Assembly (NCBI GenBank): GCA_026390775.1
Contig: JAPLFF010000007.1
Coordinates: 1,302,001 to 1,366,000 of the forward strand
DNA: 64,000 nt
Reading direction: 5' to 3'
Source: Ignavibacteriales bacterium
GTDB lineage: Bacteria; Bacteroidota; Ignavibacteria; Ignavibacteriales; Melioribacteraceae
Shown: positions 2,656 to 45,581 of the stretch, piece by piece
Layout of the letters: each line of letters opens with the position of its first letter
How positions within the stretch are numbered: position 1 is the first letter of the stretch
The notes under the pieces: generated by a model
The model's database searches: none
What the model saw: the letters and a program-made list of their open reading frames with translations, nothing else
Told to the model about the DNA's origin: nothing
Position numbers and translations under genes: made by a program

Positions 2656-4809
2656 ATGAAAAAACTATTAACTGTGTTGTCGTTAGCTCTTCCATTATTT
2701 GCACAACAACTTAAAATTACAGATCCTTATCTAACTTTTAAATCCAAACAAAACGATCCTCTCTATACAACATATACGGCGGCAATGGAACGATCAAGAT
2801 TGTACGGTGATAAAGGTTACAAAATGGATTATTACTCGGAACATCTGCCGATAAATTATTCGGGTGATCAAGCCGGAAAATTTTATTGTGTTTGGAAAGT
2901 TGATCAAGTAGTTATTATGAACACCGGAGAGTTCTATGAAAAACCGGTTGTTACTTCCTCGTTCCCGGATATGATGATTATGGAATATTCTCCATTCAAA
3001 GGAATTAAAGTTCAGGAAACATTTTTTGTTTACAGTTCATCAATTGCGTTGGTAAATCTTCAGATAAAAAACATTGATAATGTAAATCACAACATTGAAC
3101 TGTATCCGGTTCTAGAACTCGGAAACGATTCGCTTCTTATAAAATATTTCGATAAACAACACAACGGATATATAACGGAACATCATGAATCGAAATACAG
3201 GCTAATAAGTTCTCTCTATAAAAATGCACCTTACCCAATGGAAACGCGAGATTACTTTACTTCCAACTTTGCTGCATATTCTTTTGGCGGTTACCATAAA
3301 TCGCTCGAAGATTTTTACATTACGATCAAAACAGATTTTTATGCAGAGAAGAGGAACGATTCACTCAATCACAAAAAAGAAGGATTGACAAATTTTATTT
3401 CTCTTCACGGAAAATTTTCTTTGAAACCGGGCGAAGAAAAAAATATTAGATATTTCCGCGGATGGCAGGATCAAAAAGAAGATTTGCAGAAACTTGTTGA
3501 TGAGATAGAAAAACTAAAAACCGAATCCATTCAAAAATATGTTGATGCAAGCGTAAAATTATTTTCTCAAATCCCGCGCATCAATTTCAAAACTCAGGAC
3601 GAAAAACTTGTTTATCTCGGCGCATTTAATTTAGCACGAGGATGTTTTTATCCTCCAACGGAAAAAACTAATTATAATTTTTATGTTTTTTCTCGCCAAC
3701 CGCTATGGGGTTGGGGACACGGACATCAAGTTCTGCATGAATCATTAAGCATGCTTGCTTATACATATCTCGATCCAAAGTCTGCAGAAAATTCTCAGCG
3801 TGTTTACATAGAACAGCAAAGAGAAGACGGATTAATTGCATACCGCCACGGTCCGCGCGGTTTGCAAGACTATCCCCACTTCAGCAAAGAGTTGAACAAA
3901 GATATGTCAACCACATCAGCGCCTTTTTTCAGTTGGATAAATTGGGAAGTTTACAAAGTCAGTAAAGACAAAAGATTTCTTTCGGATGCATACTCCAGCG
4001 GAGAAAAATATATTAAATGGTTGATGAACAATCGCGATCTTGATAAAGACGGATTGTATGAATGGGGACCTTATGGAATTATAGAAAACGTTCGTGATTG
4101 GTATAATGCGGTATTTCAGGTGAGCGCAGAAAGACATCTTGATGTTGACACGGAAGATATTTCAGACGAGCTTGAATGTGTTGATCTAACTTTTATGATG
4201 ATAAAAGAAATGCGCTCTCTCTCGCAAATGGCAAAAGAACTTGGAATGAAAGACGCATCGCGAGCATGGGGAAAAATTGCCGACTTAACTTCAGAACTTG
4301 TTAATCAAAAAATGTGGGATGACAGCAGCAAGTTTTATTATTCGATCAACAAGAAAGATCATTCATTCAAATATCTAACACGCGATTTACGCAGAATGGA
4401 GATAATTGGATTTCTTGCGCTTTGGGCTGAAGCCGCACCAAAAGAAAGAGCAGAACAACTAGTAAAACATTTACTCGATCCGAAAAAATTTTGGCGCAAG
4501 TATGGTGTTCCAACTCTTGCGGCTGATGATCCGTGGTTTACTCCTTATGTTGATTACTGCTGTAAGTGGAACGGTCCCGTTTGGCTGCTATGGGATTACA
4601 TGGTCCTTGACGGGTTGAAAAAATACGGTTACAACAAAATTGCGAATCAGCTTGCAGACAAAATGTTACTTGCAGTTACAACGCAGTTGAAAAAGAATCA
4701 TAACTATTGGGAATCTTACAGTCCGGATAACGAAGTGCTCAATTCGCCGCCAAATTATATTTGGGATTCAATAATGGCGAGAGTACTTATTGAGAAATAT
4801 AAAAAATAG
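2656..4809 (+). CDS. Secreted MGH1/GH63-like (alpha/alpha)6 glycoside hydrolase
   Basis: This 717-residue protein starts at ATG 2656, preceded by a GAGG ribosome site; a GTG two codons upstream is less likely. A Sec signal peptide MKKLLTVLSLALPLFAQ is visible. Residues about 20-290 are a beta-rich N-terminal domain. From about 320 the barrel carries WGWGHGHQVLHES, EDGLIAYRHGPRG, GLYEWGP and the C-terminal block WNGPVWLLWDYM...NYWESYSPDNE, which is typical of mannosylglycerate-hydrolase-like and GH63 enzymes. It differs from its two neighbours, which belong to a debranching-enzyme-like group. The three genes point in one direction and are separated only by palindromic spacers, so they may form one locus for oligosaccharide breakdown. 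The substrate is unknown. Confidence 0.85.
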   Translation: MKKLLTVLSLALPLFAQQLKITDPYLTFKSKQNDPLYTTYTAAMERSRLYGDKGYKMDYYSEHLPINYSGDQAGKFYCVWKVDQVVIMNTGEFYEKPVVTSSFPDMMIMEYSPFKGIKVQETFFVYSSSIALVNLQIKNIDNVNHNIELYPVLELGNDSLLIKYFDKQHNGYITEHHESKYRLISSLYKNAPYPMETRDYFTSNFAAYSFGGYHKSLEDFYITIKTDFYAEKRNDSLNHKKEGLTNFISLHGKFSLKPGEEKNIRYFRGWQDQKEDLQKLVDEIEKLKTESIQKYVDASVKLFSQIPRINFKTQDEKLVYLGAFNLARGCFYPPTEKTNYNFYVFSRQPLWGWGHGHQVLHESLSMLAYTYLDPKSAENSQRVYIEQQREDGLIAYRHGPRGLQDYPHFSKELNKDMSTTSAPFFSWINWEVYKVSKDKRFLSDAYSSGEKYIKWLMNNRDLDKDGLYEWGPYGIIENVRDWYNAVFQVSAERHLDVDTEDISDELECVDLTFMMIKEMRSLSQMAKELGMKDASRAWGKIADLTSELVNQKMWDDSSKFYYSINKKDHSFKYLTRDLRRMEIIGFLALWAEAAPKERAEQLVKHLLDPKKFWRKYGVPTLAADDPWFTPYVDYCCKWNGPVWLLWDYMVLDGLKKYGYNKIANQLADKMLLAVTTQLKKNHNYWESYSPDNEVLNSPPNYIWDSIMARVLIEKYKK

Positions 4810-4887
4810 AACGCAGATAACACGGATCGAACAGATTTACGCTGATAAATCTGCGATAATCCGTCTAATCAGCGTCATCTGTGTTCT
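4808..4887. repeat. 80-nt imperfect palindrome overlapping a stop codon
   Basis: The first 20 bases and the reverse complement of the last 20 match at 16 positions (AGAACnCAGATnAC pattern). Internal GCAGAT, CGGAT and ATCTGCG words form further stems. It begins inside the stop codon of the preceding glycosidase gene. It belongs to a family with copies at 2572, 35749 and 37306. Confidence 0.75.
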
Positions 4888-4919
4888 ATATAAATCTATA
4901 ACAAATGAGTGACTAAAAA

Positions 4920-7529
4920 ATGAAACAATTAAAACTTTTTATAGTAATCACTTTTATTATCACACTAAATAATTTTGCACAAACCGAATTAATAAAGAAA
5001 TTTGAAATCAAACAGAACAAGCTAACAATCACTTGCCCCGCACAGTCAAATCAGTACATGGATAAGATCGGGCAGAAAGCGGCATTGCTGGGTTATGAGA
5101 ACGGTTCATTCGAAATGTGGATCTGGCCATGGAAAGTTCTGCGAAATTTTGAAACACAATTTTTTGTTGGAACAACTACACAGCCGATACTTGCGAAAGA
5201 TATTCTGCGCGATATTTCCGTAACTCCGGAAGCAACAACACTCACATTTGTTTACGAATCATTCACTGTGAAGGAAATTATATTTATCCCGCACGATAAA
5301 CCCGGCGCAATAATTTTATTAGATGTTAACACAACTACTCCGTTAACTGTTGTTCCCGGATTTATGCCCGTGATGCAGCCGCAATGGCCCGCAGGAATTG
5401 GCGGACAATACAGTTACTGGGATGATGGAATGAATGCATATGTAATTTCAGAATCTCAACAACGGGGATTGTTTTTATGCGGATCACCCGTTGCACAACA
5501 AATGGCGGCACCTCCCGCTCATATGTTCGCAGATAATCCGATTCAATTCAAAATAGATATTAAACCCGGCGATGCAAAAAATAATTTTATTCCAATCGTA
5601 ATTGCCGGAAGTCCGGTTAAGACAAAATATGATTCAGTGAAAGCACTTTATAAAAATCTTCTTGGCAATATTGAATCACTGTACAAAAAGAATTATGAGT
5701 ATTATGAAAATCTCCGCCACTCAACTGTTGAAGTGATAACGCCGGATGAAAAATTAAATCTTGCTTTCGAATATGGAAAAGTAGCTCTCAATAATTTAAT
5801 GGTAGATAATGCAACTTTAGGAAAAGGATTGGTTGCCGGATACGGATTGAGCGGCGGCGGCGGTCGCCCGGGATTTGCGTGGTACTTCGGCGGGGACGCA
5901 TTTATTAACTCGCTTGCTATGAACAGTTACGGCGATTACTCAACTGTGCGCAATGCACTTGAGTTTACACAAAAATGGCAAAGAGAAGAAAATTATCCGA
6001 TCAGAAAAAAGAATCCAACTGATAAAGTAATTGATGTGGGAAAAATGGCGCACGAACTTTCTCAAAGCGATGGACTTGTTGATTGGTGGAATGATTATCA
6101 TTTCGGATATAATCATGCGGATACTTCTCCGTGGTATTTAGTTGCGATTGGAGATTACTTTAGAAAAACCGGTGATATAGAATTCATTAAGAGAAGTTGG
6201 AAATCAATTGTTCAAGCATATAAGTGGAGTTTAAGCAAAGACAGCAACGGAGATGGTCTGATGGATCTAAAAGGCGCCGGACTTGGAGTTCTAGAGTTCG
6301 GAACACTCGTAAAAATATTTAATGACAACTACACACAAAGTTTATGGACGCAAGGGATAAAAGAAGTGAACTTGATGGCAAAGTACGTTGGTGATAAAGA
6401 GATGGAAAGCGAAACAACAAAACTTTTTCCGAAAGCACAGCAAGCATTAGAAAAAATATTTTGGATTGATGATCTCGGCTTTTACAGTTTTGGTGCAGCA
6501 GAAGACGGAAAGCAAATCAGAGATAAAAATATTTATTCTTCTGCTTCAATTCTTTTTGGTTTGATGAACAACGAACGAAGTGTAAGCACAATCAAAAAAT
6601 TTAATGAAAGCGATATGGTAACGGATTGGGGAGTACGCAATCTTTCAAACAAATCATCAATGTATGAACCAACAAATTATAATTATGGAACGATATGGCC
6701 GTTCACCTCTTATTTTATTGGCGCTGCGCAATTCTATACACATTTTAATCTTCAAGGTTTAGAAACTGTCCGCAAGACTGCTCAACATGCATTCGATTAT
6801 GGAATTGGAATCGTTCCGGAAGTTTTTTCGGGCGACATTAATACAAAACTCGGCGAGGCATATCACGATCAAGGATTCAGTGTAAGCGGTTATGTCTTTC
6901 CGTTAATGCAAGGATTGATTGGACTCAATGTTGATGTACTCAACAACAAAATTACTCTTGCACCCAAATTACCGGCTGATTGGAAATTTTTGAAAGTGAA
7001 CAATATCAAACTTGGAAATACTGTAGCGAGTGCAGAGTGTAGAGTGCAGAATGGTGAAATGAAATTGCTATTAAATGTGAATAGTGAAAAAGAAATTGAA
7101 TTCGAATTCGATCCGGATTTTGAGTTAGGTGTTGAAATTAATTCCGTAGTGTTAAATGGAAAGAAGTTGGACTATGAATTGGAAAAACACGAGCAAGCAT
7201 ATCAGTTAAAAACTAATTTTAAGGTAAAGAGTAAAAATGAATTAGTAATCAATTATAAACCATCAATTGGAATTTATTTACCCGCATCAATTACTCCGAT
7301 CGGTGCAACGAACGAAGGACTGAAGATTATTTCTCAAAAGTTAGATGGGAAGAAACTAATAATTAGCTGCGAAGGTAAAGCGAACAGAAATTATGAGTTA
7401 GGAGTGATGAATTATGAATTAATCGGAAAAGTTACCGGCGCAGAATTTAAGGAGGGGAAATTAATTATTAACATTCCGGCTAACGGAGAAGAATTTATTA
7501 AACATGATGTTGTAATTGAAAAAAAATAA
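4920..7529 (+). CDS. Secreted six-hairpin glycosidase, glycogen-debranching-like
   Basis: The 869-residue protein has a signal peptide (MKQLKLFIVITFIITLNNFAQ) and the same architecture as the truncated paralogue at the left edge: beta domain, (alpha/alpha)6 barrel from about 280 to 680, then a C-terminal beta domain. Motifs include GRPGFAWYFGGDA, KMAHELSQS, YNHADTSPWYL, KTGDIEFIKRSW and a late barrel block with YHDQGFSVSGYV. The first paralogue has FGRD where this one has FGGD, so substrate handling may differ. Two stretches in the C-terminal domain, at 7028-7050 (three GAGTGYA units) and 7389-7421 (NYELGVMNYEL), look like short repeats captured in the reading frame. The family is well supported; the exact substrate is not. 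Confidence 0.85.
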   Translation: MKQLKLFIVITFIITLNNFAQTELIKKFEIKQNKLTITCPAQSNQYMDKIGQKAALLGYENGSFEMWIWPWKVLRNFETQFFVGTTTQPILAKDILRDISVTPEATTLTFVYESFTVKEIIFIPHDKPGAIILLDVNTTTPLTVVPGFMPVMQPQWPAGIGGQYSYWDDGMNAYVISESQQRGLFLCGSPVAQQMAAPPAHMFADNPIQFKIDIKPGDAKNNFIPIVIAGSPVKTKYDSVKALYKNLLGNIESLYKKNYEYYENLRHSTVEVITPDEKLNLAFEYGKVALNNLMVDNATLGKGLVAGYGLSGGGGRPGFAWYFGGDAFINSLAMNSYGDYSTVRNALEFTQKWQREENYPIRKKNPTDKVIDVGKMAHELSQSDGLVDWWNDYHFGYNHADTSPWYLVAIGDYFRKTGDIEFIKRSWKSIVQAYKWSLSKDSNGDGLMDLKGAGLGVLEFGTLVKIFNDNYTQSLWTQGIKEVNLMAKYVGDKEMESETTKLFPKAQQALEKIFWIDDLGFYSFGAAEDGKQIRDKNIYSSASILFGLMNNERSVSTIKKFNESDMVTDWGVRNLSNKSSMYEPTNYNYGTIWPFTSYFIGAAQFYTHFNLQGLETVRKTAQHAFDYGIGIVPEVFSGDINTKLGEAYHDQGFSVSGYVFPLMQGLIGLNVDVLNNKITLAPKLPADWKFLKVNNIKLGNTVASAECRVQNGEMKLLLNVNSEKEIEFEFDPDFELGVEINSVVLNGKKLDYELEKHEQAYQLKTNFKVKSKNELVINYKPSIGIYLPASITPIGATNEGLKIISQKLDGKKLIISCEGKANRNYELGVMNYELIGKVTGAEFKEGKLIINIPANGEEFIKHDVVIEKK
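7028..7050 (+). repeat. Three tandem copies of a 7-bp unit inside a CDS
   Basis: GAGTGCA, GAGTGTA, GAGTGCA follow each other at 7028-7048 within the glycosidase gene and encode SAECRVQ. Three 7-bp units make 21 bases, so the frame is kept. Confidence 0.6.
7389..7421 (+). repeat. In-frame ATTATGARTTA direct repeat
   Basis: ATTATGAGTTA at 7390 and ATTATGAATTA at 7411 lie 21 bases apart and encode NYELGVMNYEL. From memory of the group, this peptide recurs in unrelated Bacteroidota proteins as a translated repeat. Confidence 0.55.
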
Positions 7530-7682
7530 CGCTCGGAGAATATATAACTCATAAACAATAGCAGGACAATATCAACAAAAAAATTTTTTATTTAATAAAA
7601 TCGTATTAGGAAGAATAAATCTATTTTAATAGATTTTAATTGTGACCAGAAGCGATTACAAATTATTTTTATTTATAGGCAC

Positions 7683-7928
7683 ATGCTACCAATAACTTTA
7701 GAAACCTCAAATCAAATCAATCTATTTCAACCAAGAGAGAGAAGCGCCCCTCATTTTGAATTACAAATAATTAATGAAGGACTTTTCCCGGAAGTAAGAC
7801 TTTATTATTTAGAAAATAAAGAAGTTAGAAAAACAAAAAAGCAAAAAAAGAAAAGAATATCTTCCTCTAAAAAGAACAACAAATTGTTAACCGCTGAATA
7901 TCCACATGTAATAAAGTTAGCAGTTTGA
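7683..7928 (+). CDS. Small basic hypothetical protein
   Basis: An 81-residue ORF with no family I recognise. The C-terminal half is very lysine-rich (RKTKKQKKKRISSSKKNNK) and would suit nucleic-acid binding, but this is only composition. The ribosome site is weak (AGG a few bases before the ATG). It stands alone between the glycosidase gene and the DUF4342 gene. It may be spurious. Confidence 0.35.
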   Translation: MLPITLETSNQINLFQPRERSAPHFELQIINEGLFPEVRLYYLENKEVRKTKKQKKKRISSSKKNNKLLTAEYPHVIKLAV

Positions 7929-8086
7929 TTTAGTCTCAATAAAACAAATCACTTCTCAAAAGCACTAACCTAATTTTTCTCCATCATTATATAATTAACA
8001 ATCAAAATTAATTTTATTTAATCTTTGCGGAACAAATTAGTCTTCTTGCACATCTAAATTAATGTAAAAGATAGAGACAAAAGAAA

Positions 8087-8344
8087 ATGGAATTTAAAAT
8101 TAAAGGGCAAGAACTTCTTGCAAAGATTGAAGAACTTATCAAAGAAGGAAATGCACGTAAAATAATTATTAAAGATGATAAGGGTAAAACTTACATTGAG
8201 ATTCCAGTAACAGTTGGAGTTATAGGAACTTTGTTCGCCCCAGTAGTTGCCGCTGTTGGCGCACTCGCAGGTGTTGCAGCCAATTTTACAATAGAAGTGA
8301 TTAAAAAGGAAGATGAAGAACAATCCCAACCCGATAAGAAATAA
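8087..8344 (+). CDS. DUF4342 family small membrane protein
   Basis: The 85-residue sequence fits DUF4342: a short N-terminal amphipathic helix pair (KGQELLAKIEELIKEGNARKIIIKD), a beta segment GKTYIEIP, then one hydrophobic segment from about 42 to 68 (GVIGTLFAPVVAAVGALAGVAA) and a charged tail EDEEQSQPDKK. The domain resembles UBA-type helical folds followed by a membrane anchor. Its molecular role is not established. It is convergent with the PAS gene, whose stop lies 4 bases beyond. Confidence 0.8.
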   Translation: MEFKIKGQELLAKIEELIKEGNARKIIIKDDKGKTYIEIPVTVGVIGTLFAPVVAAVGALAGVAANFTIEVIKKEDEEQSQPDKK

Positions 8345-8348
8345 AATT

Positions 8349-8678
8349 TTATCTGATAAAGTGAGGCATATCAAAAGGAATCTCGAGTGATAACTCAACA
8401 AGTCCTTTCATCTCGCCATTCTCATAACACGGCGATTGATAAATCAATTTTTTGATTCCGTTCTTTTCAATTGTGTAAACATTTGGTTTCTTTTCATTCA
8501 TTATCTTTTTTATTATTTCATTCGATGCATTGGTATGGCATTCAAATAAATTTTTTCCAATCAAAGCATAACCACCGTCATCGGCAAATGTGGAAGCTGC
8601 TTTTTCGTTCATCTCCGTAACGATTCCATTATTATCACACAATAAAATTGACGCGGGAAATTCTTTTGTCCAATCCAT
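8349..8678 (-). CDS. Stand-alone PAS domain protein
   Basis: A 109-residue protein that is a single PAS fold: FPASILLCDNNGIVTEMNEKAASTF, then LIGKNLFECHTNASNEIIKKIM and a C-terminal beta sheet. It has no output domain. A clear GGAGAA ribosome site precedes the ATG. The upstream methyltransferase gene ends 11 bases before it in the same direction, so the two are probably co-transcribed and the PAS protein may sense a ligand linked to that methylation. Cofactor binding is not predictable, although CH in FECH could bind heme. Confidence 0.7.
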   Translation of the reverse strand: MDWTKEFPASILLCDNNGIVTEMNEKAASTFADDGGYALIGKNLFECHTNASNEIIKKIMNEKKPNVYTIEKNGIKKLIYQSPCYENGEMKGLVELSLEIPFDMPHFIR

Positions 8679-8689
8679 TTGTTCTCCAA

Positions 8690-9247
8690 TTATTCTTTCT
8701 GAAATAAAGCGCTAATGCTTCCTTTAATTTTTGGTCTTTCAATTACTTTTAAATTATTCTGTCCGGCAATTGAAATTGTCTTCTTAAAATCATCTTCAGA
8801 TACATGTCCGGCCGGTTCAGAAATGAGTAAATAACCTTTTCTTTTTATTGTGCCGGAAACTTCTTTCATAAAAGGAACTGGATCAGGAACCTCATGAACC
8901 ATTGCAAAAGCAAGAACAAAATCTAATTTTTCTTTTAGATCATCAAGTCCGAGAGATTCTTGATTGCACAAACGCGTTTCAATCCTTTCCAATAAATTAA
9001 CTTTTCCGGCGCGCTTCTTTAAAACATCGAGCATCTTTTCCTGCATATCAACGCAAATTACTTTTCCATTTGCACCCACTAACTTTGCAAGCTCCAAACT
9101 GAAATAACCCATAGCGCATCCCACATCCATTACTTTCATTCCATCCTTAATGTACGGACTTAGAATCTTATTCGGATTTTGAAATAATTTTCTTATCGGA
9201 CTTAATAATAAATAACCGATCCAGACCGGACAAACACGTTCTGACAT
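8690..9247 (-). CDS. Class I SAM-dependent methyltransferase
   Basis: The 185-residue protein has the Rossmann methyltransferase core: motif I MDVGCAMGYFSLELA, acidic motif II VICVDMQEKML, and motif IV region KLDFVLAFAMVHEVPDP. A short N-terminal helix with CPVWIGYLL precedes it. The start ATG is preceded by GAGGATAAA. It is first in a two-gene unit with the PAS protein. The substrate (small molecule or quinone-like) cannot be deduced. Confidence 0.8.
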   Translation of the reverse strand: MSERVCPVWIGYLLLSPIRKLFQNPNKILSPYIKDGMKVMDVGCAMGYFSLELAKLVGANGKVICVDMQEKMLDVLKKRAGKVNLLERIETRLCNQESLGLDDLKEKLDFVLAFAMVHEVPDPVPFMKEVSGTIKRKGYLLISEPAGHVSEDDFKKTISIAGQNNLKVIERPKIKGSISALFQKE

Positions 9248-9466
9248 TTTATCCTCGTTATAAATGAAAAAAATATTTGCGCTTAATCAGACGTTTGAAA
9301 TAATTAGCAGTTGCCTAAGAGTGAATTATTATTCGGACAGCTTTGACAGAGCAATCCGCAGTATGAAATTATTTCGATCATAATTTTGTAATTGTTATTT
9401 TATAATTACACAAATGTCACACTGAAAAACGCTGTCCGTGTTAAGCGGTGTGTTGTGTGTTTAATA

Positions 9467-10387
9467 TTATTCTTTATTTTTTTCAGAATCATCAATAGTA
9501 TAAGCATCACTACTAGAAAACATGGCTCTATTTTCAAATTCCATAATGTTTTCCTCATATTTAGGATCGTATGGAGGATTACTAGGAATAAGATTATGTT
9601 TTGTAGAGTAAACTAATGTGCTGAAATATGGTAACCATTCATCAACTGTCTGTAATTTTAAATCATAAGAAATAATTTTAGTCGAATTTTTTGCTTCTGT
9701 AGGAAAGTGATAATAAATTTTACCGATTTCTGAATCAACACATTTAGCATTTTCACAAGAGAGCACACCGAGTTTTCCAAGCGAATTATCTAAATATAGA
9801 AATATATCTCTATCATCTTCTTCTAGACCAATATGAATACCATTTATGAATCTTTTTAATATGGGATAACATAATAATTGCAACATTTCCGCTACTGCAA
9901 CAAATTTCCGAGCTTCTTCAAAACTAATTTTTTGATACTCATGTTCGATAATGTTTCTTTCTTCATTTAAACTCTTTATTAAAATTGTTGGGAAGAATTC
10001 TGACTTTTCGATAATATCCAATTTTTGAGGAAATGATCTTGAAGAAAAATTATGAGATAAACCAGTAATTTCTAGAAGGGAATCAATCAATAAATGAACT
10101 GCCCGTTTAGCATTTCCAATTGCATTAATCGATCCATGCACATCTTTTGAAATCAAATCTGCTTTTGCATAAAGAATATATTCTATCGGATCAATACCTT
10201 TCGGATTTACTGATAGCATAGATAAATAATGAATATCTGAAGCGATATAACGCAGTTTATTTCTTGGTGGAGAATTTAGAAAAGGATCTTTGTTTTTTGA
10301 TATATATTTTTCAAACTGTATCATAAAATTTACTTGTATATTTCTTGGCACATAACTATTAATCAACCCATCAATGTTATTATTCAC
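9467..10387 (-). CDS. Hypothetical protein with HEPN-like Rx4H motif
   Basis: I do not recognise a named family for this 306-residue protein. Residues about 85-165 are helical: a helix SINAIGNAKRAVHLLIDSLLEITGL, then EERNIIEHEY with R144-x4-H149, which matches the Rx4-6H signature of HEPN ribonuclease domains. The C-terminal 130 residues look alpha/beta and are uncharacterised. The start is GTG at 10387 without a clear ribosome site; an ATG at residue 22 (MIQFEKYIS) is an alternative. It lies alone, with unrelated neighbours. Metal-free RNase, toxin or defence function is possible, but only the motif supports it. Confidence 0.6.
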   Translation of the reverse strand: MNNNIDGLINSYVPRNIQVNFMIQFEKYISKNKDPFLNSPPRNKLRYIASDIHYLSMLSVNPKGIDPIEYILYAKADLISKDVHGSINAIGNAKRAVHLLIDSLLEITGLSHNFSSRSFPQKLDIIEKSEFFPTILIKSLNEERNIIEHEYQKISFEEARKFVAVAEMLQLLCYPILKRFINGIHIGLEEDDRDIFLYLDNSLGKLGVLSCENAKCVDSEIGKIYYHFPTEAKNSTKIISYDLKLQTVDEWLPYFSTLVYSTKHNLIPSNPPYDPKYEENIMEFENRAMFSSSDAYTIDDSEKNKE

Positions 10388-37643: not shown

Positions 37644-38318
37644 TTGGATCTTAACACAAAAGATATTTCCCATTTGCTGATGATGTCTGATAAGGAAGTT
37701 CAGCAATTAATAAAGAAGAAAGAGGTTCCTTTCCAATTTCTTCAAGATAAAGTTGTGTTTAATAAACAACAAATTATCGAATGGGCGTTGGGGCGGAATC
37801 TTCCTATAAACGTTTCGGGACATAAAAAATTAAGCGAATATCGCATTGAAACAGTTAGCACTCTGCTCGATAAGGAATCATTCCATTATAAATGTGAGCT
37901 AAGTGAATCTTCTTACATCGAACAAATGGTTTCGCAAATTGATTTTGAAAAAAATGTTGACCGTGAAATTATTATTCAACTTTTGAAAAGCCGGGAATCA
38001 ATGATGAGCACTGCAATCGGAAACGGAATTAGTCTGCCTCATCCGCGCGTTCCGCTTATGGTCGGGAAAAATAAACCACTGATAAATTTTTTCTTCGCTA
38101 ATAAACCACTTGACTTAAAATCTATAGACGGCAAACCGGTTCATACTTTAATTCTTCTTATCTCGCAAACAATTAAGCAACACTTGAGTCTAATTGCACA
38201 TTTGGGTTTTCTACTTTCGAAAGAAACGTTTCGTTTCGCATTGGAGAACCGGCTTGAGTATAAAGAGATATTAGACATTATCAAAAAAATTGAGGAGACA
38301 AGAAACAAAGCTCAATGA
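37644..38318 (+). CDS. HTH plus PTS fructose/nitrogen-type EIIA protein
   Basis: Start TTG 37644 is chosen because it completes an N-terminal excisionase-like HTH (NTKDISHLLMMSDKEVQQLIKKKEVP, residues 4-30, followed by FNKQQIIEWALG). Residues about 80-220 are a PtsN-type EIIA domain: RESMMSTAIGNGISLPHPR carries the phospho-acceptor H133. It overlaps the first membrane subunit by 4 bases (ATGA), so it is part of the operon. It may sense phosphotransfer state and control the membrane complex; DNA binding is inferred from the fold only. Confidence 0.8.
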   Translation: MDLNTKDISHLLMMSDKEVQQLIKKKEVPFQFLQDKVVFNKQQIIEWALGRNLPINVSGHKKLSEYRIETVSTLLDKESFHYKCELSESSYIEQMVSQIDFEKNVDREIIIQLLKSRESMMSTAIGNGISLPHPRVPLMVGKNKPLINFFFANKPLDLKSIDGKPVHTLILLISQTIKQHLSLIAHLGFLLSKETFRFALENRLEYKEILDIIKKIEETRNKAQ

Positions 38319-40297
38319 AGGATTTAATTGATTCCGGAAGTGTTTTATTCATTGCGGCATTTGTAATCCAATTACTCGCAATTGTTTTTCTTTTCATTAA
38401 GAATGAGCGCAAAGCATTATTTTCAACAAACATCGTTCTGCTTATCGGTTTGACTCTTGGACTAATATCAACTTTATCTTCGGCACTTTTTTCTTCTGTC
38501 GAAATTTCATCAAAAAACATATTTTCTAATTGGATTCGTCTCGATGGATTGAGTATTTACTTTTTATTTATTGTTCAGCTGGTGGCAATTCCAACTACCA
38601 TTTACAATTTTTCATATCTTCAACATTACATTGAGCAAAAAAAATCAATAAAAAGTTTTGTAACACTTTATGTCATACTACTAATCTCAACTCAGTTTAT
38701 AGTAATCGCAAACCAAGCGATTGTATTTTTGGTAAGCTGGGAAGTGATGAGCATGTCCTCCTACCTTGCAATGCTTTTAGAAAAAGAAAAAAAAGAAGTT
38801 CAACGGGGGAGTTTCTATTATTTCGCCGCTTCGCACGTTTTAATTTTTATTCTTTACATCTTTTTCTTTTTACTTCATCATCAAACCGGAAGCTGGTTCT
38901 TCAGTGATTATCATCTTTCGTTTTCGATCGGCGTTGTTGTTCCAATAATTTTCATTTTATCTTTTATCGGTTTTGGAATTAAAGCGGGATTTATGCCGTT
39001 TCATTTTTGGCTTCCGCAAGCACATCCAATTGCTCCCACCGTGTTGAGCGCATTTCTTTCCGGTGTAATAATCAAGATGGGTATTTACGGAATACTAAGA
39101 ACATTCCTTTTCATCAAGCCGGTTCCGGAATGGTGTGGCTGGTTAGTGCTGGGTGTTAGTATGATTAGCGCAATATTTGGTGTTTGGTATGCGCTTGCCC
39201 AACACGATATTAAACGATTGCTTGCGTATCACTCGGTTGAAAATATTGGAATCATTGGAATCGGGATTGGAATTGGATTCATCGGCTCGGCAAATAATCT
39301 ACCGGCAGTTGAAGTTTTGGGATTTGGCGGAGCGCTTCTGCACACCTTGAATCACGCAATATTTAAAAGTCTTTTGTTTATAGGCAGCGGAGTTGTCTAT
39401 CAAAATCTTGGAACAAGAAATATTGAATTGATGGGCGGACTCGTTCACCGCGCAAAATATATAGCTTTATTTTTTCTGATTGGCTCGGTTGCAATCAGCG
39501 GCATTCCTCCATTCAACGGATTCATATCAGAGTTCATTATTTACATCGGCTTTTTCAAAACGGCGAACGAGTTAAAAAATTATTACCCAATTATTATGTT
39601 GATGTTTGTAGTCGGATTAGCGTTTGTCGGTGGATTGGCAGTTGCTTGTTTTACAAAAGTGAACTCAATTATGTTTTTGGGAAGCGAACGAAAGGTAGTA
39701 AAACATTTCCACACTTCAATTTACGATTATATCTCACTCGGAATTTTTGCTTTGCTCTGTATTGTGATTGGATTTTATCCCCAACCTTTTGTTGGAGTAG
39801 TTAATAAAGTTATCACTAACGATTTTATTAAGGGAAATTCTTCTTCAGCATTGGCCAATATTGATTGGCTCTACTTCACTGTGATTTTCTCCTCTATTGC
39901 ACTTGGTGTTTTCGTTTTGTATCTGATAAAAATAAAACTCGAAAAGAGATACGGAAGAAGAACTTCAGCAGCTTGGGGCTGTGGATATGAAAACCTAAAT
40001 CCTCGAATGCAATATACTGCTTCATCATTTGCAGACGAACTGAACACAATTCCCAAATCTGTTTTAGTATATCACAAAAAAGTTGAAGTTTCTGAAACCG
40101 CATTTCCGTTACTGTCTAAGTTTGAAAGTCATTCAAAAGATTTTGTTGATAGCAAACTTGTCTTGCCCTCGTTCAACTTTTTGAGATCGCTGGTTACAAA
40201 AATAGAATTCTTAAGCCAGACAGATATTCGTTATTACATCGCATTTATTTTAATCATTATATCAATTTATAGTTTGATAGCGTTTTTATGGGTATAG
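38315..40297 (+). CDS. hyfB: Hydrogenase-4-like proton pump subunit B (HyfB/NuoL-like)
   Basis: The 660-residue protein has about 16 hydrophobic helices and the antiporter-like core: WEVMSMSSYLAML with a conserved Glu, GFGIKAGFMPFHFWLPQAHPIAP with Lys and His, and HDIKRLLAYHSVENIGIIGIG. These charged residues conduct ions in complex I and Mrp-type antiporters. A C-terminal cytoplasmic region (AAWGCGYENLNPRMQYTASSFAD) is typical of HyfB. It couples electron transfer to ion translocation. It is followed by hyfC with a 10-base overlap. Confidence 0.9.
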   Translation: MKDLIDSGSVLFIAAFVIQLLAIVFLFIKNERKALFSTNIVLLIGLTLGLISTLSSALFSSVEISSKNIFSNWIRLDGLSIYFLFIVQLVAIPTTIYNFSYLQHYIEQKKSIKSFVTLYVILLISTQFIVIANQAIVFLVSWEVMSMSSYLAMLLEKEKKEVQRGSFYYFAASHVLIFILYIFFFLLHHQTGSWFFSDYHLSFSIGVVVPIIFILSFIGFGIKAGFMPFHFWLPQAHPIAPTVLSAFLSGVIIKMGIYGILRTFLFIKPVPEWCGWLVLGVSMISAIFGVWYALAQHDIKRLLAYHSVENIGIIGIGIGIGFIGSANNLPAVEVLGFGGALLHTLNHAIFKSLLFIGSGVVYQNLGTRNIELMGGLVHRAKYIALFFLIGSVAISGIPPFNGFISEFIIYIGFFKTANELKNYYPIIMLMFVVGLAFVGGLAVACFTKVNSIMFLGSERKVVKHFHTSIYDYISLGIFALLCIVIGFYPQPFVGVVNKVITNDFIKGNSSSALANIDWLYFTVIFSSIALGVFVLYLIKIKLEKRYGRRTSAAWGCGYENLNPRMQYTASSFADELNTIPKSVLVYHKKVEVSETAFPLLSKFESHSKDFVDSKLVLPSFNFLRSLVTKIEFLSQTDIRYYIAFILIIISIYSLIAFLWV

Positions 40298-41211
40298 AAA
40301 TCCTACAAGGAATTATTTCGATAATTGTAATTTTGGGAATTGCGCCTTTGTTTGCCGGAATGGTAAACAAACAAAAAGCGATTTTAACAGGAAGGATTGG
40401 CGCTCCGATTTGGCAGCCATACTATGATTTACAGAGACTTTTTAAGAAAGAAACTATCAACGCAGCTAATTCTTCTTTTATCAGTCGCGTTTCTCCAATA
40501 TTAAATCTAGTTACTTTGATTATAGCTGCAGCAATGCTTCCCGTTGGATTTTGGAGACCGCTCATAAGTTTTAACGGGGACATAATTTTATTCGCTTACA
40601 TTTTAGGACTTGCAAGATTCTTGCAGATCTTGGCGGCGATGGATATCGGAAGCTCATTTGAAGGAATGGGCGCGGCACGAGAAGCAACATTCGCATTATT
40701 CGCCGAGCCGATTTTCTTTTTTACAATCGGAAGTATCTCATTTGTTAGCGGATTAACTTCTCTCTATAATATTTATCATTCAATACAGCTTACTAATATT
40801 TCCTATGAAGTTTTTATTATAATATGTTCAATTTCTGTTTTTATGCTTGCGGTTACCGAGTGCTCAAGGATGCCGGTTGACGATCCGAACACACATCTCG
40901 AACTCACAATGATTCACGAAGTTATGATACTTGATAATTCCGGCTTTGATTTATTCCTTTATCAATATTCGAGTTATATAAAATTATTCATCTATGCTAT
41001 TCTTGAAATATCATTTTTCTATCCGTTCAGCAAGCAAAGCTATCTAGTTGGCATAATAATTTTTATTACTGGAAGTATCGGCCTTACTTTTGCTTTGGGA
41101 ATAGCCGAAACGATAACCGCGAGATATAGGATGAAAAATATCCCGCAGTATTTGTTGTTTGCAACCGCAATTGGAATATTGAATTTACTGATTTATACTT
41201 TTACGAAATGA
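40288..41211 (+). CDS. hyfC: Hydrogenase-4-like subunit C (HyfC/NuoH-like)
   Basis: A 307-residue protein with about eight helices. Quinone-pocket-like loops are present: RIGAPIWQPYYDLQRLFKKE, GLARFLQILAAMDIGSSFEGMGAAREA, and ECSRMPVDDPNTHLELTMIHE, all typical of HycD/HyfC. It links the hydrophilic arm to the ion pumps. The start overlaps hyfB by 10 bases; the next gene starts 7 bases after the stop. Confidence 0.9.
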   Translation: MGIEILQGIISIIVILGIAPLFAGMVNKQKAILTGRIGAPIWQPYYDLQRLFKKETINAANSSFISRVSPILNLVTLIIAAAMLPVGFWRPLISFNGDIILFAYILGLARFLQILAAMDIGSSFEGMGAAREATFALFAEPIFFFTIGSISFVSGLTSLYNIYHSIQLTNISYEVFIIICSISVFMLAVTECSRMPVDDPNTHLELTMIHEVMILDNSGFDLFLYQYSSYIKLFIYAILEISFFYPFSKQSYLVGIIIFITGSIGLTFALGIAETITARYRMKNIPQYLLFATAIGILNLLIYTFTK

Positions 41212-41218
41212 GTTAGTT

Positions 41219-41851
41219 ATGGAAAATGTTTTAAGCATACTTTTTTGTCTATCGCTGTTTTATGTCGTCGTTACGTCACGCGTAAAAGCATATGTTACTG
41301 TTTTGCGAGCACAAGGAATAATATTGTCAGTCTTACTAATGATTCCGTTCATTTATCATTTTTCAATCTTTGGAATAATTCTTCCGGCAACGCTTCTGCT
41401 TGTAAAAGTTTTTCTCATACCACGTTATATTAACAAAGTCATTCTGGATCTCGATATTAAAAGACGAATAGAACCAACAATACAACAAATGGTATTTTTG
41501 CCTATAGTTATTGCATCAATGATCGTCATCTTTCTTGCCTCAAACATTCTTTCGAAAAACACTGAATTAGACGTTATTCCATTTGCGTCCGGCTTCTCGG
41601 CAATAGTTATTGGCATCTACATAATTATATTTAGAAAAAAACTTATAGTTCATGTTTGCGGATTTTTAATTTTAGAAAACGGAATATTTTTATTTGGCAC
41701 CGCGGTAGCTTCCGAACTGCCGATGATGATCGAGTTAGGAACATTGCTTGATGTATTCGTAGTTGTATTTTTAATGGGTATTGCTTTGAATAGAATCAGC
41801 AACACTTTTGAAGGATTTGAGGTAACGCATCTCGGGAGGTTGAAAGACTGA
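41219..41851 (+). CDS. hyfE: Hydrogenase-4-like subunit E (HyfE)
   Basis: The 210-residue protein has about six helices and resembles HyfE, a NuoK-like subunit fused to a further helix bundle. The signatures RAQGIILSVLL and GFLILENGIFLFGTAVASELPMMIELG carry the conserved Glu residues. The stop codon TGA shares its last base with the next ATG (TGATG). It probably lines an ion channel beside the antiporter-like subunits. Confidence 0.85.
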   Translation: MENVLSILFCLSLFYVVVTSRVKAYVTVLRAQGIILSVLLMIPFIYHFSIFGIILPATLLLVKVFLIPRYINKVILDLDIKRRIEPTIQQMVFLPIVIASMIVIFLASNILSKNTELDVIPFASGFSAIVIGIYIIIFRKKLIVHVCGFLILENGIFLFGTAVASELPMMIELGTLLDVFVVVFLMGIALNRISNTFEGFEVTHLGRLKD

Positions 41852-43305
41852 TGTTCGAATTTTCCATTTTTATATTACTTCCTCTACTAACCGCCGGATT
41901 TTGTTACTTCATAAAAGATTTGCGAATACAGTATGGCGTTTCTTTAATTGTCGCTCTATTGCATCTTGGTTTATCGCTATTAGTTTTTCTTGGATTTTAT
42001 CACACACAACTGCCGACATTTTTTAGTGTTGATTCGCTCAGTAAGTTTTTTCTTCTGATCCTTTCGAATGTTTATTTCTGGGTTGTGCTTGTTTCATTTT
42101 CATATTTGAAAAGACCGGTAAAACCCAAAGCAGAGGAAGGGAAAAAATACTATTTCTTACTAATAAATTTTTATTTAACCGCAAACTCCGCTGCTATGCT
42201 CAGCAACCATTTTGGAATGTATTGGGTTGCCGCAGAAGCAACAACATTAAGTGTAGCTCCGCTAATATATTTCTACCGAAACGAAGAAGCACTTGAAGCA
42301 ATGTGGAAGTATCTGTTTTTGGTTTCAGTAGGAATTGCATTTGCATTCATCGGGATATTATTATTAACACTTTCCGCCAAAGGAACAGGGCTCGAAGGGA
42401 AACAATTATTCTTTTGGGAATTTATTCGTAACGCAACTCAACTAAATCCAATTTGGTTGAAGGCGAGTTTCATTTTCATCTTTGTTGGATTGAGCACGAA
42501 AATTGGAATTGCACCAATGCACTCCGGTGATATTGACGCTACGAGCAACGCGCCAAGTCCAATTGCTGCCTTGATGTCCGGCTCTCTGCGTTTAACTGCG
42601 CTTCTTGGTGTGATGAGAATTTTTCAAATCATTCGTCCGACATCTTCTTACGAGTTTGCGAAAATCCTTCTCATCATTGGTGCGTTACTATCGCTCTTTG
42701 TTGCGTTCGTATTTATGTTCAAAGTAAACAATTACAAGCGGATGCTTGCATACTCAAGCGTTGAGCATCTCGGGCTTATCTCGCTGGGTTTGGGAGTTGG
42801 CGGATTAGCATTTATCGGAGCGATGTATCACGCATTTTATAATTCGATCGCAAAAGTTGTTCTTTTTCTTACGGCGGGAAATATTCACCGCAATTATAAA
42901 TCGCGTGAAGTTGAAAAAGTTAGATCGGTATTAAATTTAATGCCCAAGACGGGATGGCTCTTTCTGCTCGCATTTTTAGCAATTTCCGGAATCCCTCCGT
43001 TTGGAATATTTTTCAGTGAAATAAAAATCTTCGAAGGAATTCTTTTTTCCAACAAGCCGTATTTGCTCGCACTCGTGATGTTCTTCCTGCTATTCATCTT
43101 TGTGAATATGGGCAAAATTATTTTTACGATGCTCTACCAAAAAGGAGAGGATGAAAAACAGCAAACCGAAACAGAAAAATTTGAACTCACTCATTTTATT
43201 GCGATTATCTTATTGATTTTATTAGCTGCAATAGCAGTTGTTTCACCGGATATTTTATATACAAATATAATTAACATCACAAAAGATTTTGGTATGAATT
43301 TATGA
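41851..43305 (+). CDS. hyfF: Hydrogenase-4-like proton pump subunit F (HyfF/NuoN-like)
   Basis: The 484-residue protein has about 14 helices with YWVAAEATTLSVAPL, GLSTKIGIAPMHSGDIDATSNAPSPIAALMSG, and NYKRMLAYSSVEHLGLISLGLG. These are the Glu, Lys and His ion-path features of a second antiporter-like subunit. The complex thus has two pump modules (B and F). It overlaps hyfE by one base and hyfG by four. Confidence 0.9.
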   Translation: MFEFSIFILLPLLTAGFCYFIKDLRIQYGVSLIVALLHLGLSLLVFLGFYHTQLPTFFSVDSLSKFFLLILSNVYFWVVLVSFSYLKRPVKPKAEEGKKYYFLLINFYLTANSAAMLSNHFGMYWVAAEATTLSVAPLIYFYRNEEALEAMWKYLFLVSVGIAFAFIGILLLTLSAKGTGLEGKQLFFWEFIRNATQLNPIWLKASFIFIFVGLSTKIGIAPMHSGDIDATSNAPSPIAALMSGSLRLTALLGVMRIFQIIRPTSSYEFAKILLIIGALLSLFVAFVFMFKVNNYKRMLAYSSVEHLGLISLGLGVGGLAFIGAMYHAFYNSIAKVVLFLTAGNIHRNYKSREVEKVRSVLNLMPKTGWLFLLAFLAISGIPPFGIFFSEIKIFEGILFSNKPYLLALVMFFLLFIFVNMGKIIFTMLYQKGEDEKQQTETEKFELTHFIAIILLILLAAIAVVSPDILYTNIINITKDFGMNL

Positions 43306-44780
43306 AATTGCTCGAAGTTCAGAATAATCAGTTATTCGATAGAGATGCAATTCACTTTTTAGAGAAAGATGAATTTCGAAATTCTGTTTCTGAATTGATG
43401 AATAACGGGAACAGAATGATTGCACTTACTCCGGTTGATAAAAGTGATCCACATAAAATTATTGCAGTTCTCGCCGATTCAAATTCATCAATGATTAATA
43501 TTGTCGGCGGTGATTTTAGTAAGGGTAAACTTGAATTTGAAAGCTGGGCGAATGAATTTCCACAAACACATTATTTCGAATGTGAGCTTTCGGAAAATTA
43601 TGACTATGTACCGGTCAATCATCCTTGGCTTAGACCGGTAAGAAGACAGAATGTAATTCTGGGAAAGAAGCCTTATAATTTTTTCAAATTGGAAGGCGAA
43701 GAAGTTCACGAAGTTGCAGTTGGACCAATTCATGCAGGAGTAATTGAACCGGGGCATTTCAGATTTCAATGCCACGGCGAACTTGTTTATAATCTTGAAA
43801 TTAATTTAGGTTACCAACACAGAGGAGTCGAAAAACTTTTTCTACAAGCAAATCCGAATCAACGAATAATTTTATCTGAATCAATTACCGGCGATACAAC
43901 TATCGGCCATACTTTTGCTCACTGCAATGCAATCGAAAGTTTATCACAAACGCAATTGGGCTTACGCGCAGAAGTTGTTAGAACTATTGCCGCTGAAATA
44001 GAAAGAATAGCAATGCATTTATCGGGGCTTGGCGGTGTTTCTAATGATATTGGATTTGCTTTACCGGCTTCTTCATATGGAAGACTGCGCACGCTTGCTA
44101 TTAATAGTCTGGCTTCGATATGCGGGTCAAGATTTGGACGCGGATTGTTTGTGTATGGCGGTGTTCGTTTTGATCTAAATGATGAAATAATAAAAACAGT
44201 AATAAAAAATCTTAAGATTATTCAGAAGGATGTTCAGCAGATTAACAAATATTTATTCTCATCAGTTGGCGCTTTATCACGATTTGAAGAAACCGGGATA
44301 ATTGGAAAAGAGTTCGCTCAAAGCGTCGGCTTGGTCGGTCTATCCGCACGTTCTTCCGGACTTGAAGAAGATGTTCGCATTCAGTTTCCATACAGCGCGT
44401 ATCGTTACAACCCAATTTCTATGATAACATTATCAACCGGAGATGTATTTGCTCGCGCTCGTTTGCGTGCATTGGAAATTGATGAAGCATTACGATTTAT
44501 TTTTGACCAGATTGAAAATCTTCCTCAAGGAGAAATAAAATCTGAAACCGGAAATATTACAGCAAATTCCGGAGTAATTTCAATTATCGAAGGTTGGCGC
44601 GGTGAAATTGTTCACATCGTATTTACAGATGGGAAAGGGAATTTGTTGAATTACAAAATCAAAGATCCTTCATTCAATAATTGGTATGGACTAAGTTTGG
44701 CTTTGCGGGAAACTGCTATTTCAGATTTTCCACTTTGCAATAAAAGTTTTGATTTGTCATATGCTGGTCATGATTTATAA
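43302..44780 (+). CDS. hyfG: Hydrogenase-like large subunit without Ni ligands (HyfG/NuoCD-like)
   Basis: The 492-residue protein fuses a NuoC-like N-terminus (about 1-115) to a NuoD-like large subunit. GPIHAGVIEPGHFRF (141-155) and LGYQHRGVEKLF (169-180) are family marks. Where [NiFe] enzymes have RxCGxC, this one reads ESITGDTTIGHTFAHC (193-208); and the C-terminus DFPLCNKSFDLSYAGHDL (475-492) has no DPCxxC. All four Ni-binding cysteines are missing. It is therefore probably an Ehr-type subunit that does not handle hydrogen. Its fold and operon are otherwise complete. Confidence 0.88.
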   Translation: MKLLEVQNNQLFDRDAIHFLEKDEFRNSVSELMNNGNRMIALTPVDKSDPHKIIAVLADSNSSMINIVGGDFSKGKLEFESWANEFPQTHYFECELSENYDYVPVNHPWLRPVRRQNVILGKKPYNFFKLEGEEVHEVAVGPIHAGVIEPGHFRFQCHGELVYNLEINLGYQHRGVEKLFLQANPNQRIILSESITGDTTIGHTFAHCNAIESLSQTQLGLRAEVVRTIAAEIERIAMHLSGLGGVSNDIGFALPASSYGRLRTLAINSLASICGSRFGRGLFVYGGVRFDLNDEIIKTVIKNLKIIQKDVQQINKYLFSSVGALSRFEETGIIGKEFAQSVGLVGLSARSSGLEEDVRIQFPYSAYRYNPISMITLSTGDVFARARLRALEIDEALRFIFDQIENLPQGEIKSETGNITANSGVISIIEGWRGEIVHIVFTDGKGNLLNYKIKDPSFNNWYGLSLALRETAISDFPLCNKSFDLSYAGHDL

Positions 44781-44790
44781 AAACAATTTT

Positions 44791-44817
44791 GTAGAACAGA
44801 TTAGTAATCAGTTCTAC
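44791..44817. repeat. 27-base hairpin between hyfG and the H-I fusion gene
   Basis: GTAGAACAGATT and AATCAGTTCTAC pair, with one A-A mismatch, around AGT. It has the same length and layout as the hairpin at 14116-14142 (GTAGnnCAGATT-N3). It has no T-run, so it may be a processing or attenuation site inside the operon. Confidence 0.7.
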
Positions 44818-44831
44818 CTTTATGAATAATT

Positions 44832-45581
44832 ATGAATGACGCAATAAAAATAAGAATACTTCAGGGCGATCCAATAGTTCACGATGTAAGAAATGTATCT
44901 CTGCCAGAACTATTTCGCGGATTACCAACCATAGAAGACAAAGCTTGTCCCGATGGCTGTAATAAATGCGTAGAAGTCTGTCCAACAAATGCAATCAAAT
45001 TAAACCCGGTAAGTATTGATTTGGGTTTGTGTGTCTTTTGTCCGTTATGTGAAGAAACTTGTCCCGAAAAAATAATTCACTTTACAAACAACTATCATTT
45101 AGCGGTTGACAGAAAGGAAAAATTAGTTGTAACAAAAGAAACAAAAATTATTTCTCCGGAAAAGGCATCTGAGAAAATCAGAAAATATTTTGGTAAATCA
45201 TTAAAGCTGCGGCAAATATCTGCCGGCGGATGTAACGGTTGTGAGCTTGAGCTGAATGCACTTAGTAACGTTAACTTTGATATGGGCAGATATGGAATTG
45301 AATTTGTTGCCTCGCCGCGTCATGCCGACGGGGTAGTAATTACCGGGCCACTTACGCAAAATATGGCAAAGGCTACAAAGATTTGTTGTGAGGCAGTCCC
45401 AAATCCAAAAATAATAATTCTTTTTGGCGCGTGTGCAATTTCGGGTGGCATATTTCAAAACTCATTGGAATTACAAAGAAAATTTCTCGAAGAAAATAAA
45501 ATAGACCTTTTCATTCCCGGCTGTCCGCCGCACCCCCTTACTTTTATAAATGGTTTGCTGGATTGGTTGGATAAAATTTGA
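44832..45581 (+). CDS. Fused ferredoxin (HyfH) and small subunit (HyfI/NuoB-like)
   Basis: The 249-residue protein joins two modules. Residues 39-77 carry two [4Fe-4S] motifs: C39, C43, C46, C50 and C67, C70, C73, C77. Residues about 125-249 are a NuoB/HyfI-like small subunit with C134, C137 (GGCNGCELE), C201 (GACAISGG) and C231 (PGCPPHP) to bind the proximal cluster. Separate hyfH and hyfI genes are usual, so the fusion is uncommon. It feeds electrons toward the subunit G interface. An ATG 51 bases after the hyfG stop is the start. Confidence 0.88.
   Translation: MNDAIKIRILQGDPIVHDVRNVSLPELFRGLPTIEDKACPDGCNKCVEVCPTNAIKLNPVSIDLGLCVFCPLCEETCPEKIIHFTNNYHLAVDRKEKLVVTKETKIISPEKASEKIRKYFGKSLKLRQISAGGCNGCELELNALSNVNFDMGRYGIEFVASPRHADGVVITGPLTQNMAKATKICCEAVPNPKIIILFGACAISGGIFQNSLELQRKFLEENKIDLFIPGCPPHPLTFINGLLDWLDKI

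Follow-up and report, generated by a model that had tools for sequence, protein, structure and literature searches.

The stretch of DNA analysed here (the window) is 64,000 nucleotides of contig JAPLFF010000007.1 from an Ignavibacteriales bacterium (assembly GCA_026390775.1, positions 1,302,001 to 1,366,000 of the forward strand), and it contains an operon of seven + strand genes at 37644-45581, with neighbours overlapping or no more than about 50 bases apart. The gene order is a helix-turn-helix (HTH)/EIIA gene, hyfB, hyfC, hyfE, hyfF, hyfG, and fused hyfH-hyfI. Sequence comparison solidly places this cluster in a known family, the energy-converting hydrogenase-related (Ehr) complexes, whose large subunit (EhrL) lacks the nickel ligands of hydrogenases. 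A preliminary description of this DNA had also taken the rest of the operon to be intact; HyfB, HyfC, HyfE and HyfF are all present, and the iron–sulfur part is one fused protein rather than separate HyfH and HyfI. The features are as follows, with profile matches in brackets.

37644..38318, +: first gene, putative winged-helix DNA-binding domain and EIIA-Ntr-like phosphotransferase system (PTS) domain, 224 aa (PF00359 1.7e-19)
38315..40297, +: HyfB/EhrA-like antiporter-type ion-pump subunit, 660 aa (PF00361 2e-45; hydrogenase 4 subunit B 8.7e-144, under the curated cut-off)
40288..41211, +: HyfC/NuoH-like membrane subunit, 307 aa (PF00146 2.6e-29)
41219..41851, +: HyfE-like membrane subunit, 210 aa (hydrogenase 4 membrane subunit 1.5e-13 and Oxidored_q2 4.4e-4, both under cut-off)
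41851..43305, +: HyfF-like antiporter-type ion-pump subunit, 484 aa (PF00361 1.8e-38; hydrogenase 4 subunit F 1.9e-80, under cut-off)
43302..44780, +: HyfG/EhrL large subunit without nickel ligands, NuoC-like and NuoD-like parts, 492 aa (PF00346 7.2e-37)
43878..43916, +: former L1 motif ESITGDTTIGHTF, residues 193-205; the C241/C244 columns of HycE are T196/T199
44739..44777, +: former L2 motif and C-terminus NKSFDLSYAGHDL, residues 480-492, stop codon next; the C531/C534 columns are S486/G489
44832..45581, +: EhrS, HyfH-type 2x[4Fe-4S] ferredoxin domain fused to a HyfI/NuoB-type small subunit, 249 aa (PF01058 3.8e-27, Fer4_7 9.7e-7)

The large-subunit open reading frame (ORF) spans exactly 43302-44780 and encodes 492 residues. 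Its best solved relative is Escherichia coli HycE, both by sequence (7z0s_E, E 9.6e-42, phmmer) and by fold among the families listed (7z0s_E, Z 41.1, root-mean-square deviation (rmsd) 2.5, 478/492 aligned; mean predicted local distance difference test score (pLDDT) of the model 89.8). In the phmmer alignment the N-terminal motif SESITGDTTIGH lies opposite SDRVCGICGFAH of HycE with both cysteines changed to threonine, and the C-terminal motif SFDLSYAG is the counterpart of SLDPCYSC with its cysteines changed to serine and glycine, such that HycE C241, C244, C531 and C534 are T196, T199, S486 and G489 in the window. All four cysteine columns are changed, in line with the preliminary description of this gene. 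The N-terminal replacement it gave corresponds to T196/T199 and stands, but the C-terminal one, DFPLCNKSF, was in the wrong register: this stretch, itself conserved in Ehr, is located about 10 residues upstream of the true motif.

We aligned 90 EhrL sequences with 11 CxxC-bearing group 4 enzymes and 12 NuoD sequences, and the alignment reproduced the HycE numbering used in the available text of PMC9474812. The 90 are the window's own sequence, those from 9 of the genomes sampled from its phylum (118 sampled, 10 of them Ehr carriers) and those of the 80 loci nearest the window among at least 585 relatives confirmed in a contig scan, and they sample the side of the family closer to the window; the nearest named relatives are the EhrL of L013 (a Bacteroidetes record, 80%) and L014 (an Ignavibacteriales record, 78%). 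Those 80 loci were sought with two peptide patterns, one drawn from conserved sequence near residues 147-153 and the other from that near 454-461, and the ligand columns, G197, D198 and the C-terminal tail lie outside both. A complete cysteine pair was present at neither motif in any of the 90 sequences. Column 196 held A in 73, C in 10, S in 4, T in 2 and V in 1, column 199 held T in 75, S in 13 and A in 2, and columns 486 and 489 were invariant serine and glycine. G197, D198, Y487, D491, N480, K481 and S482 were likewise constant in 90/90, while the 11 CxxC enzymes had cysteine at 196, 199, 486 and 489 and I, L or V at 198. A single Cys196 is kept in ten EhrL (L033, L039, L043, L046, L063, L067, L070, L082, L083 and L090), seven of which are named Gastranaerophilales/Melainabacteria.

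The preliminary description had allowed that a sequence error might hide an intact pair; a sequencing or assembly error as the cause of the loss is ruled out because the loss is shared by all 90 relatives. All 90 also stop at this point without a C-terminal extension, while HycE runs on beyond it, and this is the point at which the HycE maturation peptidase cuts. Of the maturation genes that the preliminary description had pointed to, HypD was not found in the window's own genome (3.01 Mb, 99.94% complete), where the other hyp genes and the maturation peptidase were not searched for. Across the phylum sample HypD was present in 45/118 genomes, and the 10 Ehr carriers were split into five with and five without it. 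PF00374, the NiFe large-subunit family, had no match over its cut-off in the own genome, and its three weak matches were EhrL and two NuoD. For an active NiFe hydrogenase with unusual ligands one can cite HycE as the nearest solved relative, along with locus L170, which lies outside the Ehr clade and has both cysteine pairs in an Ehr-like context; against this are the missing pairs and the lack of HypD in the own genome and in half of the Ehr carriers of the phylum. We consider this explanation exceedingly unlikely and reject it as far as sequence allows.

Phylogeny agrees with the assignment to Ehr. A first tree (IQ-TREE, 69 rows, including 45 of the 90 EhrL, 11 CxxC rows and 12 NuoD) put the 45 EhrL rows on one side of one branch (support 100/94) and the 12 NuoD likewise (100/100), with no clustering of EhrL with active hydrogenases, and this together with the lost cysteine pairs bears out the match to Ehr proposed in the preliminary description. 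The CxxC enzymes were split in two in this tree, with L170 joining the Ehr side. L170 (genome G139, the same as that of L065) has the cysteine pairs MCGVCS and ELCYSCTDR and an Ehr-like NKSFELCYSCTDR end, and it may give a picture of the Ehr ancestor. Another relative, L183 (genome G145, the same as that of L038), is ligand-less (AGTS; LSVAECDR), very divergent and on a long branch, in a genome that carries Ehr as well. A second tree of 29 EhrL rows, with the ligand columns removed and L183 dropped, recovered the Ehr split with support of only 93/57. A single loss of the ligands is probably the simplest reading, though not a firm one. The window groups in one clade with the Geomonas EhrL rows L056 and L068, stand-ins for that of Geobacter sulfurreducens, which is itself outside the set. 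Among the 30 loci that HycE retrieved in the window's own phylum, none of the best ORFs was a CxxC group 4 enzyme.

What remains around the former metal site suggests a working pocket. The proton route described for HycE includes E193, R478, D529, H284, E437 and R395 (PMC9474812, available text), and in EhrL the corresponding columns are largely kept: E149 in 89/90, R433 in 90/90, H239 in 89/90, E392 in 90/90, and R350 as arginine in 86/90 and lysine in the other four. The beta1-beta2 loop position D192/His95 is isoleucine (I148) in all 90. Taken with the constant residues above, these columns suggest that the pocket may still perform a proton-coupled reduction different from that of protons to H2, and that it is rebuilt around G197-D198-[TS]199 and S486-Y487-x-G489-x-D491.

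One candidate for such a reaction is that of a ferredoxin:menaquinone oxidoreductase, essentially complex I without its NADH module, which we regard as possible but doubtful. The homology to NuoD and NuoH speaks for it, as do the three places in the own genome that match the 2-oxoacid:ferredoxin oxidoreductase (POR) family and the counterpart of complex I Asp139 (Thermus thermophilus), D249, which is aspartate in 90/90 EhrL and 11/12 NuoD even though this column is F, I, E or A in at least 9/11 CxxC enzymes. UbiA (PF01040) hardly discriminates, with matches in 35/36 Ehr-bearing genomes and also in 14/14 controls; the one Ehr-bearing exception, the genome of L024, is a metagenome assembly. Telling against a menaquinone site, His38 and Tyr87, which bind the quinone headgroup in T. 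thermophilus complex I, have I148 and G197 as their counterparts in all 90 EhrL (148 inside a search pattern, 197 outside). The role of the histidine in quinone binding is described in the available text of PMC9474812. Also unfavourable are the small subunit, with a hydrogenase-type CxxC rather than the tandem cysteines of NuoB, and the occurrence of Ehr in Riflemargulisbacteria in which, according to the available part of PMC6349859, a full quinone pathway was not identified.

A second candidate is that the rebuilt pocket reduces a soluble or small inorganic acceptor, and we see it as open to similar doubt. MBS, the sulfane sulfur reductase, belongs to the complex I superfamily and offers a precedent (PMC9474812, available text), and the polar set S486, Y487 and D198 is uncommon in the 12 NuoD compared. 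No recurring substrate gene lies beside the operon, however, since no cluster among 637 neighbouring ORFs was found in more than 7 loci.

The window's EhrS carries two ferredoxin-type 4Fe-4S motifs and a proximal-cluster subunit with a hydrogenase-type CxxC (GGCNGC), and no HycB-like or NuoEFG-like gene was found within the seven-gene operon. A fused ferredoxin/small subunit is present also in L056 (profile match). At least two ferredoxin motifs were matched in 61/86 EhrS and the CxxC plus PGC pattern in 21/86, both minimum counts from narrow patterns that show no loss, so the clusters are established for the window rather than for every relative; the tandem-cysteine pattern tried for NuoB (N2 cluster) matched 0/86. 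At least two full-length hyfB genes occur in 15/66 loci counted (L022, L054, L056, L066 and 11 more), possibly supplying an extra pump subunit. These extra pump genes, and the loss of all metal ligands next to retained antiporter-type subunits, are what one would expect if the redox arm were catalytically dead and the complex an ion channel or antiporter with a structural or regulatory iron–sulfur arm. We find this very improbable, as the window keeps its iron–sulfur motifs and most of the proton route and the pocket has gained new constant residues, unlike a dead site.

The first gene, which overlaps hyfB by 4 nt, belongs to the operon. Its EIIA domain (about aa 68-220) matches PtsN in fold (3urr, Z 17.4, rmsd 2.4, 146 aligned; model pLDDT 89), with H133 as the candidate phosphohistidine and H180 as the second active-site histidine; these were kept in 49/52 and 48/52 proteins, respectively. 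We surveyed 87 gene sets (92 loci plus the window, minus two NuoD loci and four minus-strand loci, with L001 being the window's own gene again), of which 47 have the EIIA/HTH gene (3 of them cut at the 5' end), 15 are without it and 25 lack a readable 5' end. Counting the window, the gene is thus in the operon at 44/59 loci with a readable 5' end, and in three of the 44 (L059, L075 and L076) it sits behind the first hyfB rather than upstream. L035 and L061 have a tandem pair of these genes at the operon's 5' end, and Geomonas limicola (L056) is among the carriers. The linkage extends over taxa including Bacteroidota/Ignavibacteriota, Spirochaetota, Verrucomicrobiota, Planctomycetota, Omnitrophota, Zixibacteria, Myxococcota, Geobacteraceae and Gemmatimonadota. 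The loci without the gene are L033, L039, L067, L070 and L082 (Gastranaerophilales/Melainabacteria), L068 and L069 (Geobacteraceae), and L043, L047, L050, L062, L077, L083, L089 and L090. Eight of the ten EhrL with Cys196 are among these 15, and the remaining two come from loci whose 5' end is unreadable.

Within the phylum sample, full-length EIIA/HTH proteins were found in 6/118 genomes, every one an Ehr carrier (of 10) whose ehrL shares a contig with the gene, and in 0/108 non-carriers (Fisher 6e-8, kinship ignored). These six matches start at query residue 1 with 29-100% identity, while all others begin within the EIIA part, no earlier than residue 44. The own genome has an HPr gene next to one for enzyme I (EI), and apart from the first gene it also has a PtsN-like gene that stands alone (L155). 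The linkage and domain content suggest that the EIIA/HTH protein regulates ehr. Its connection to ehr is the new point of this analysis, absent from the preliminary description, and we found no PTS/Ehr link in the open-access literature as far as titles or abstract openings tell.

Based on these results, we propose that Ehr is an oxidoreductase that draws on ferredoxin and pumps ions, with a pocket rebuilt without metal and with the PTS in control, a reading to which we would give an even chance. As hypotheses for its donor, acceptor and regulatory step, a low-potential one-electron donor, most simply ferredoxin reduced by the genome's 2-oxoacid:ferredoxin oxidoreductases, would pass electrons through the three iron–sulfur clusters of the fused small subunit to the pocket, which would reduce a two-electron acceptor that requires protons, rather than protons alone. 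The protons would arrive by the route kept from hydrogenase and complex I (E149, R433, H239, E392 and R350), and the drop in potential may drive export of H+ or Na+ through HyfB and HyfF. The likeliest acceptor would be a membrane quinone held unlike in complex I, with a soluble acceptor nearly as likely. The EIIA/HTH protein, phosphorylated on H133 via EI and HPr, could tie expression or activity of the complex to phosphoenolpyruvate (PEP) and the energy state.

Several observations weigh against this proposal. Both complex I quinone ligands are absent, with I148 and G197 in their columns. In the proton route, the canopy Asp529 column is asparagine in 78, aspartate in 11 (including the window) and serine in 1 of the 90 EhrL, and the constancy at I148 and E149 is partly a product of selection, both being inside a search pattern. 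The tail (488-492) and the beta1-beta2 loop (141-149) fall under pLDDT 50 in the model, and therefore we claim no pocket geometry or distances. On the regulatory side, the putative winged-helix part (about aa 1-50) matches HTH_17 at 3.1e-4 with 21.4 bits against a gathering score of 27, and the fold-search hit covers aa 68-220, with the DNA-binding part outside it. Absence of the EIIA/HTH gene at 15/59 loci means that it is not obligatory, and 4/10 Ehr genomes of the phylum are without a full-length copy.

Formate dehydrogenase (FDH) has been put forward as an Ehr partner in Riflemargulisbacteria and Saganbacteria, and an FDH-linked complex seems improbable here. PF00384 has four matched places in three frames in the own genome, and one of these (L156, complement 4070-9999, contig C8) holds a NuoE-like gene (by eye), a NuoF-like gene and a gene whose 1251-aa product combines 2Fe-2S, GltD-like and FDH alpha-like parts. 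This gene set favours the link, as does the higher abundance of all G. sulfurreducens Ehr subunits on formate than under hydrogen-containing conditions (PMC7894505, available text). The set is on another contig, though, and its 1251-aa fusion, which resembles GltD and FDH, scores below the curated cut-offs shown. FDH was also rejected as a partner conserved in the operon: none of the 30 largest clusters of neighbouring ORFs looked FDH-like by eye.

The commonest other neighbours were sensor/response-regulator-like genes (7 loci, including the window) and SulP-like genes (6 loci), both named by eye apart from the L158 relative. In the window the operon is preceded by an ArsC-like gene (35831, by eye) and an SBF-family transporter (36262), and followed by an MFS/peptide-transporter-like gene (45698). 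In the close relatives L013, L014 and L158 a SulP-like anion transporter (family search for L158 only) lies ahead of the operon, at the place taken in the window by the ArsC-like gene and SBF-family transporter. Divergent from the Ehr operon of genome G101 are kdpA- and kdpB-like genes (L161, 13540-17289, by eye).

As a wider conjecture, advanced tentatively and rather unlikely to hold in full, Ehr may be a PTS-controlled respiratory pump whose pocket was converted once from an L170-like, cysteine-ligated ancestor to a metal-free GD[TS]/SYxGxD site, with an acceptor unused by characterised complex I relatives and a dedicated EIIA/HTH partner linking it to PEP-dependent phosphorylation across many phyla. 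Ehr is widespread, with at least 585 relatives here, yet its function is called unknown or never investigated in the available text of PMC10284858 and PMC7894505. The constant residues provide targets for mutants and a short signature separating Ehr from hydrogenase in annotation, and the EIIA/HTH partner gives a handle on function through regulation. The L170 branch bears on how a metal site changes into a site for another acceptor, a step also behind complex I.

The founding Ehr papers are reportedly those of Coppi and of Marreiros. In the available portions of PMC6349859 and PMC10284858, Ehr is described by its lost ligands, and either FDH-Ehr is proposed or the function is called unknown. 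Higher Ehr abundance has been seen in syntrophic coculture (PMC8691401, available text). In PMC8115632 the term 'Ehr' occurs solely as an author name. For G. sulfurreducens, the available text of PMC7894505 states that the role of Ehr was never investigated and suggests H2 production from formate; we disfavour this because the nickel ligands are lost in 90/90 EhrL, Geomonas included, a comparison whose 90 sequences lie outside G. sulfurreducens itself.

The described Ehr complexes (e.g. G. sulfurreducens GSU0739-0745) are like the window in their group 4-like subunits and a large subunit without Ni/Fe ligands (PMC6349859 and PMC10284858, available portions). The window differs in the EIIA/HTH gene at the head of its operon, unmentioned in those portions, and in the fusion of its ferredoxin and small subunits into one protein. 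E. coli formate hydrogenlyase and hydrogenase-4 (Hyc, Hyf) have the same subunit types and fold, whereas the window has lost the four Ni/Fe cysteines and has no C-terminal extension, no HycB-like operon gene and no hypD found. Complex I (NuoB/CD/H/I) shares the large-subunit fold (mycobacterial 8e9g_D, Z 39.3, rmsd 2.2, 353 aligned) and the NuoD-type Asp139, but the window is without the quinone histidine and tyrosine, has a hydrogenase-type CxxC small subunit and lacks an NADH module in the operon. Finally, the first gene resembles PtsN/EIIA-Ntr in its EIIA fold and in both active-site histidines, and is set apart from it by an extra N-terminal putative DNA-binding domain and by its linkage to ehr.

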